A stretch of 24,817 nucleotides of DNA from positions 1 through 24,817 of IMG/VR virus record IMGVR_UViG_3300022921_000099, one strand, 5' to 3'. Both the position numbers and the translations under genes were made by a program. The stretch is from a virus. The notes beneath the pieces are model-generated. The model saw only the letters and a program-made list of their open reading frames with translations. It did not search any database and was not told the DNA's origin. Positions 5,755 through 6,631 of the stretch are shown in pieces (the stretch's first letter is position 1; each line of letters starts with the position of its first letter).

Positions 5755-5841
5755 TTGATATTTCCTTGCTCGATGAGCACTAAACGTTAAGGTGCAACTT
5801 TTCTGTTGCCAGGTAAGTTGCCAACCCCGTAGCCTAACTAA

Positions 5842-5871
5842 TTAGGCCGCAAGAGCAAAGTTTTCGTTTGC
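5842..5871 (-). other. tmRNA proteolysis tag reading frame
   Basis: GCA AAC GAA AAC TTT GCT CTT GCG GCC TAA encodes A-N-E-N-F-A-L-A-A. The ALAA end is the degradation signal read by ClpX and related proteases. The tag is one residue shorter than the E. coli form and lacks its Asp. Confidence 0.92.
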
Positions 5872-5955
5872 GTCTATAGATTTGCTTGATTTACGGTCAT
5901 CGCCTACCGGTAACTCCACTGCGCCTATGCCGTGTATCGATCCTGTTTCACCCCC

Positions 5956-6002
5956 ATCATAACTACATGAAAATTGTCTGTGTTAATCTCTCCATGTAGT
6001 TA
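5956..6002 (-). other. Intervening segment of the permuted tmRNA
   Basis: The 47-base spacer between the acceptor CCA and the coding 5' end holds a perfect 11-bp inverted repeat (ATAACTACATG / CATGTAGTTAT). In the precursor this helix would bring the two pieces together before processing at the CCA end and at the mature 5' end. Confidence 0.75.
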
Positions 6003-6070
6003 TGGTGGAGGTGGGCGGTACTGCCCCGCCGTCTACTCCGTCGTCAACGTGCTTCAACGTTACAAGTATA

Positions 6071-6099
6071 TTTATAACACCTTTATACGGTGATGTCAA
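6071..6099 (-). promoter_or_regulatory. Consensus sigma70 promoter for the tmRNA, overlapping a late box
   Basis: TTGACA (6094-6099), 17-base spacer, TATAAA (6071-6076). Transcription would begin near 6064, at the expected 5' end of the acceptor piece. The -10 overlaps TATAAATA (6069-6076), so late phage sigma factor could use the same site. The promoter covers the last codons of the upstream gene. Confidence 0.85.
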
Positions 6100-6382
6100 C
6101 CTCTTTTTTTGTTTTTTCTTTGGATTTTGATTGCCTAATTGGTTCTAACCAACTGTCTGCAATGTAGGCTTGTGGACTTGGTCCAAATAGAATAGACAAA
6201 TCGTCTGCTTCTATCCACCAGTAGTGATCTGTAATTACACAAGTGCAGGGCATTCCCCTAAACTGGAATTGCTCGTTCTGTTCAAATCGTCCGATGTACT
6301 CTTTTACCTTTACAATACGTCCGATGTTTTCTGGTCTTAGTGAAAATTTAATTTGGGCAAGGTCGCCCTGGTTGCACTTCAT
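6083..6382 (-). CDS. Small conserved protein, GDLA / NIGRIVKV type
   Basis: This 99-residue protein begins MKCNQGDLAQI, followed by ENIGRIVKVKEY, a WWIEADD segment and IADSWLEPIR. This order (C-x-G-D-L-A, N-I-G-R-I-V, W, then a D-S/A-W-L-x-P-I end) recurs in small proteins of proteobacteria and phages. It looks like a small beta-barrel fold, but no function is known to me. The tail is Lys-rich. Its ATG shares one base with the stop of the cold-shock gene (TAATG), so translation is coupled. The tmRNA promoter lies inside its 3' end. Confidence 0.78.
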   Translation of the reverse strand: MKCNQGDLAQIKFSLRPENIGRIVKVKEYIGRFEQNEQFQFRGMPCTCVITDHYWWIEADDLSILFGPSPQAYIADSWLEPIRQSKSKEKTKKEVDITV

Positions 6383-6623: not shown

Positions 6624-6631
6624 TATTTATA
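6624..6631 (-). promoter_or_regulatory. T4-type late promoter box TATAAATA
   Basis: Minus strand TATAAATA, 26 bases upstream of the cold-shock gene. It is flanked by AAGTTAT/ATAACTT arms that could form a small hairpin. Confidence 0.55.

Follow-up and report, generated by a model that had tools for sequence, protein, structure and literature searches.

The analysed stretch of DNA (the window; 24,817 nucleotides of IMG/VR virus record IMGVR_UViG_3300022921_000099) carries on its minus strand a complete circularly permuted (two-piece) tmRNA gene. Two Rfam families matched the gene over their full lengths, tmRNA_permuted (RF04321) at 6063–5842 (116.8 bits, E = 1.5e-22, positions 1–213 of 213; gathering score 47) and alpha_tmRNA (RF01849) at 6114–5791 (113.2 bits, E = 1.7e-30, positions 1–355 of 355 with the 3′ region and thus both ends included; cut-off 50). 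The acceptor piece (6063–6003), delimited by both matches, comprises the 5′ strand of helix 2, the T-arm GGCGG-GGCAGTA-CCGCC (6030–6014), the acceptor 3′ strand CACCTCC (6013–6007), a discriminator A (6006) and CCA (6005–6003). It is followed by a spacer of exactly 47 nt (6002–5956), supported by the fold, by identity to the spacer of a relative (L203) and by stem covariation, and then by the coding piece (5955–5791; the 3′ end is approximate and was taken from the alpha_tmRNA match to position 355), which contains the acceptor 5′ strand GGGGGTG (5955–5949), the tag frame and a 3′ ACCTGGCAACAGAA motif. Sequence, alignment and relatives agree on a 7-bp acceptor stem with a G3-U pair and on an acceptor piece lying 5′ of the coding piece. 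The tag frame (5871–5842; GCA AAC GAA AAC TTT GCT CTT GCG GCC TAA) encodes ANENFALAA, a ClpX-type ending, with the stop TAA at 5844–5842, and the identical tag was found in many relatives. All parts named in the original prediction, namely the acceptor piece, the 47-base spacer, the GGGGGTG coding piece, the G-U third pair and the full tag, were therefore recovered, as was the match to the alpha_tmRNA model on the minus strand. The GGGGGTGAAA...GAY...GGC core had an expected count of 0 in shuffled sequence, and the region of acceptor and spacer folded at −51 kcal/mol (z = −6.8). The spacer is predicted to be cut from the mature tmRNA and its hairpin to stack on the acceptor stem. ARAGORN called three tRNAs in the window and no tmRNA gene.

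Upstream of the gene, the sequence and a scan for TATAAATA revealed a promoter (6099–6069, minus strand) with TTGACA at 6099–6094, a 17-nt gap and TATAAATA at 6076–6069, from which transcription is predicted to start at about 6063. TATAAATA combines a sigma70-type −10 element with the T4 late promoter octamer, and the model places the start of the RNA (6063) about 6 nt downstream of it; the consensus scanner, which requires a T as the sixth base of the second hexamer, did not list this promoter. The form TATAAAT was used for T4 late promoters in an earlier study (PMC9004378). Among the matches listed, 127 distinct regions lie upstream of phage tmRNAs, and 65 of these have the arrangement TTGACN-16/18-TATAAATA at a nearly constant distance. 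A palindromic gap of 17 nt, seen in some loci, proved marginal over 59 sequences (0.422, against a shuffled mean of 0.381 and maximum of 0.417) and was rejected as a feature. The window contains three copies of TATAAATA, all on the minus strand and upstream of genes, a count at chance level; the copies at 1666–1673, just upstream of the frame 68–1648, and at 6624–6631, just upstream of the cold-shock gene, are candidate T4-type late promoters.

The order of genes on the minus strand is cold-shock protein (cspA-like; 6597–6382), 99-aa protein (phrog_2529; 6382–6083), tmRNA, glycine-zipper protein (144 aa; 5754–5320; assigned by Pfam PF05433 and related loci), tRNA-Trp(CCA), tRNA-Gly(TCC) and tRNA-Thr(TGT) (5314–5053; ARAGORN and Rfam), with thioredoxin-domain, NrdB and NrdA genes further upstream. 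The tmRNA had been proposed to share a consensus promoter with the three tRNAs; the promoter was borne out, and cotranscription is possible, but the glycine-zipper frame intervenes. In related phages, the cspA thermoregulator family gave a sub-threshold match upstream of the tmRNA (L093:5274–5586 and L097:5161–5586). The supposed T4-like origin agreed with the relatives, since NrdA shares 71% identity with that of Pelagibacter phage Mosig and T4-like cyanophages. The window also shares its DUF6267 protein with T4-like cyanophages and Methylophilales phages, and gp23 was present in one DUF6267-related contig. No T4 capsid or portal gene was found in the window, a 24.8-kb fragment, and the portal search matched nowhere at all and is uninformative; the label T4-like therefore rests on NrdA and the DUF6267 relatives.

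Searching with the 99-aa protein, the conserved upstream neighbour of the tmRNA, yielded 80 viral loci. A finder based on a T-arm, a 7-bp acceptor stem with G-U and TCGAY detected 63 distinct permuted tmRNAs in the loci collected up to that stage, many of them directly 3′ of the 99-aa gene, and after an additional pattern scan the set comprised at least 144 distinct phage permuted tmRNA genes. A tmRNA downstream of the same 99-aa gene recurs in dozens of IMG/VR contigs. Rfam matched nearly all loci tested (L051 partially; L050 and L086 not at the gathering threshold). The acceptor pairing on which the original prediction depended was present, together with the T-arm, across 110 relatives; helix 2 pairs between the two pieces, which the finder did not use, covary, and the tags end in LAA or similar throughout. 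When the 1.4-kb region was compared with phage records by BLASTN, no match was obtained; with the tmRNA by itself the matches were short and weak, and included the SsrA of Methylophilales phage Melnitz. An exact search for a 36-nt core of the tmRNA in 84,980 bacterial and archaeal species, each represented by one genome, found nothing. Sinorhizobium phage Phosso, a 469-kb soil phage (L216), carries a candidate permuted tmRNA with a 410-nt spacer that is unannotated in its record. A glutamine riboswitch adjoins the tmRNA 3′ end at L241:1019–1072, as in Melnitz (L215:2847–2895), and a manA RNA lies at L203:2381–2588.

The at least 144 genes contained at least 121 distinct spacers of 25–410 nt. 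Nearly all spacers begin with a TAARCACA-like sequence and finish with a TGTGYTTATGAT-like one, so that the two ends form a helix predicted to stack on the acceptor. The pattern used to scan for the later loci included this 3′ end; the loci found via neighbour proteins, for which it played no part, have the same spacer base. The tips, by contrast with this base, are wholly different, and comprise hairpins in spacers of 25–39 nt, a shared-loop class of 41–47 nt, structured RNAs of 54–136 nt and frames of about 27–77 codons. Among the matches listed, 19 gene pairs had bodies at least 93% identical and unrelated spacers. L108 and L109, for example, are identical across 61 and 170 nt of the body, yet their spacers measure 106 and 164 nt, respectively; L082 and L083 share more than 99% identity over 1.5 kb upstream, and here the spacer lengths are 34 nt in the one and 104 nt in the other. 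Conversely, 92 of the listed pairs had spacers at least 85% identical and bodies below 80% in the multiple alignment, where body identities count gap columns; these pairs are not independent and fall into about 15 classes of cargo that occur with more than one body. The window spacer belongs here, being identical to that of L203 at 47 of 47 positions despite a differing tag and acceptor stem (the two bodies are at least 60% identical in pairwise alignment). Taken as aligned, these pairs show that cargo has been exchanged between phages, with the proviso that most relatives are metagenome contigs, in which chimeric assembly could mimic some of the swaps. The exchange probably proceeds by homologous recombination via the conserved flanks during co-infection, because in several pairs identity shifts on one side of the tmRNA.

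Rfam tmRNA matches spanned the cargo in all 13 loci tested, and in six spacer-rich loci no other family was found within the spacer. For the window spacer, Rfam gave chance microRNA hits only, and a known RNA was thus discarded as its cargo. Structured RNAs, some with covarying pairs, recur as cargo in the groups L079/L113/L299, L220/L224/L234/L260, L097/L295/L252, L307/L248/L314, L059/L327, L093/L329 and L090/L308/L311/L247; these are possibly new RNA families. Judged by eye, the spacers of L122, L235, L238 and L246 contain a tRNA-like T-arm; ARAGORN found no tRNA within the first three, and in L246 it called a tRNA-Arg(TCT) that overlaps the tmRNA.

Other spacers contain reading frames, many with a Shine-Dalgarno-like motif and several with stops inside the stem base. 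Paired frames differ mainly at third codon positions (differences at the first, second and third positions: 12/4/30 in L321/L258, 24/14/44 in L227/L230 and 10/7/24 in L223/L276), and several cargo frames thus look to be under purifying selection. The pairs L091/L109 and L294/L301 were too similar or lacked the third-position bias, so coding is not proven for every frame. The frames of L091, L155 and Melnitz continue into the tmRNA. Pfam analysis of ten cargo proteins revealed DUF6356 in one and DUF2061, slightly below threshold, in another, and no endonuclease family in any of the ten. Spacer frames were also seen in L129, L223, L227, L258, L276, L291, L302, L321 and others; the one in Melnitz (L215:2526–2667) is unannotated in that record.

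The spacer of the window folds into a hairpin whose 15-nt loop, GATTAACACAGACAA, is invariant. Among the matches listed, the loop occurred in 56 distinct contexts; in 48 of these 56 it was closed by a stem of 6 bp or more, as compared with 0.4% for 15-nt loops of the same DNA in general. In 29 representative stems all cells pair, both sides change in 9 of 11 pairs, and the covariation score was 0.863 compared with at most 0.152 for slid pairings; these 29 had been chosen for forming hairpins, so that their complete pairing reflects selection, whereas the 48 of 56 is an unselected figure. When the central seven loop bases were freed and one common stem type was fixed, all 49 sites still read AACACAG. 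Of 74 hairpins, 68 had the sense orientation and 72 were intergenic, often 20–30 nt past a stop codon. In the cultured Pelagibacter podophages HTVC019P, HTVC011P (one mismatch) and Eyrgjafa the hairpin lies between the capsid and tail tube A genes, and in HTVC109P upstream of the MarR and integrase genes. Its sites, which include 5956–6002 in the window, L171, L173 and L331–L445, are spread over several pelagiphage families. Rfam contains no family for the hairpin, and an exact scan of the bacterial and archaeal genomes for a 19-nt form of the loop (..AATTT, which is less common than ..AATC) found none. Its orientation and the covariation of its stem suggest that the hairpin acts as RNA, and our best guess is a processing or stability signal in phage RNA; attachment sites or terminators were also considered for the podophage hairpins.

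These data lead us to regard the window gene, with high confidence, as a working two-piece tmRNA of a T4-like marine phage, in which the tip of the spacer is a place for exchangeable cargo. Excision of the spacer, leaving two pieces paired with each other, is established in two-piece tmRNAs. In the window, transcription would start near 6063 from the dual promoter (sigma70-type −35/−10 plus T4 late octamer), giving a precursor whose predicted fold stacks the spacer hairpin on the acceptor stem. Host RNase P and tRNA 3′ processing would then excise the spacer and leave the acceptor and coding pieces held together by base pairing. Because the G-U pair and the tag frame are present, we infer that the host alanyl-tRNA synthetase charges the RNA and that, with host SmpB, a tag ending in ANENFALAA is put on the peptides of stalled ribosomes; a search of ten related contigs, possibly fragments, revealed no SmpB gene, and host SmpB must therefore be assumed, also for the proposed replacement of host ribosome rescue. 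As the spacer is discarded, its tip may have become a place to carry and exchange small cargo, which in the window would be the hairpin shared with pelagiphages. The more specific reading, to which we give about an even chance, is that functional cargo is loaded into the spacer and exchanged there, in the form of small protein genes and of structured RNAs which tRNA-processing enzymes would set free, and that the window cargo represents a new phage hairpin class with an invariant 15-nt loop, found in T4-like and T7-like pelagiphages.

The strongest competing explanation accepts the tmRNA as real and takes the spacer contents to be neutral, with anything harmless to processing tolerated and the diversity consisting of recently recombined debris. 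Absence of the spacer from the mature two-piece tmRNA and the many minimal hairpins of 25–39 nt fit such neutrality; the third-position bias of the cargo frames, the covarying pairs of recurrent structured cargo and an invariant loop that sits on covarying stems and is found outside tmRNA genes too speak against it, and we consider it unlikely, though a serious contender. A role directed mainly against the host, in which the phage tmRNA, instead of adding to ribosome rescue, would compete with host trans-translation or redirect it, has a precedent in mycobacteriophage DS6A, whose tag-less tmRNA-like RNA is reported to inhibit the endogenous tmRNA (PMC11915505), and would also suit the lack of a phage SmpB in the ten contigs. 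An inhibitor, however, would have no need of a tag frame, and the gene described here, unlike the DS6A form, has one that is complete and conserved, with a stop and an ending of the LAA type; this role appears improbable. Decay of a host-captured copy with loss of function might be read from the failure of ARAGORN to call the gene and from some helix 2 positions that are non-standard in the alpha_tmRNA alignment, but the acceptor stem, G-U pair, T-arm, tag frame and promoter are all intact and the gene is conserved across many divergent relatives, so that we think decay very improbable. A bacterial or chimeric contig with an alphaproteobacterial tmRNA, suggested by the match to the alphaproteobacterial model, is hardly credible given the flanking phage genes, the synteny across many phage contigs and the core without an exact match in the 84,980 species' genomes.

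A two-piece tmRNA in a T4-like marine phage had been thought unusual, a view overtaken by Buchholz et al. (2022), who described such genes in Melnitz, a T4-like marine phage, and in further phages from aquatic habitats (53 phage two-piece tmRNA genes, including 50 of marine or aquatic origin; PMC9004378). The Melnitz ssrA is, like the window gene, a permuted alpha-type tmRNA with the same type of upstream promoter and matches to the same two Rfam families. Its neighbours are a late-transcription coactivator gene and a glutamine riboswitch, whereas those in the window are the cspA-like, 99-aa and glycine-zipper genes and tRNAs, and its spacer is a 142-nt segment with a reading frame and no annotated gene, in contrast to the invariant-loop hairpin of the window. 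The tmRNA as such thus belongs to an already published type, and the spacer cargo looks to be the new part: the portions of PMC9004378 available to us do not describe it, and in the openly licensed literature we found no account of phage spacer cargo or of the invariant loop. The alphaproteobacterial two-piece tmRNA (RF01849) shares with the window gene the order of the pieces, the acceptor stem, the G-U pair, the GGCRGTA-type T-loop and the 3′ ACCUGGCAACAGAA motif, and differs in that the window gene is phage-borne, has a phage promoter and contains a variable cargo spacer (the spacers compared here are those of phages). Some tmRNA genes contain a group I intron, part of them with homing endonuclease genes (PMC11915505), which, like the phage spacer, is a removed segment able to carry reading frames; in the phages, what is removed is a permuted gene's spacer and not a T-loop intron, and no intron family was among the Rfam matches in the window or the scanned loci. 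In a nominally archaeal case that was called unique (PMC11915505), the intervening sequence of a permuted tmRNA contains a tRNA-Ala gene; this is likewise a second gene inside the spacer, but the phage cargo is widespread, diverse and exchanged.

To the known phage tmRNAs, the comparative set adds at least 144 distinct genes with a conserved dual-type promoter. The invariant-loop hairpin connects unrelated pelagiphage families. Our analysis indicates that in marine phages the discarded spacer of the tmRNA is a site where small genes and RNAs are carried and exchanged, and that annotation overlooks them, as exemplified by ARAGORN, which does not call the tmRNA of the window, and by the Melnitz record, which lists no gene inside the tmRNA.
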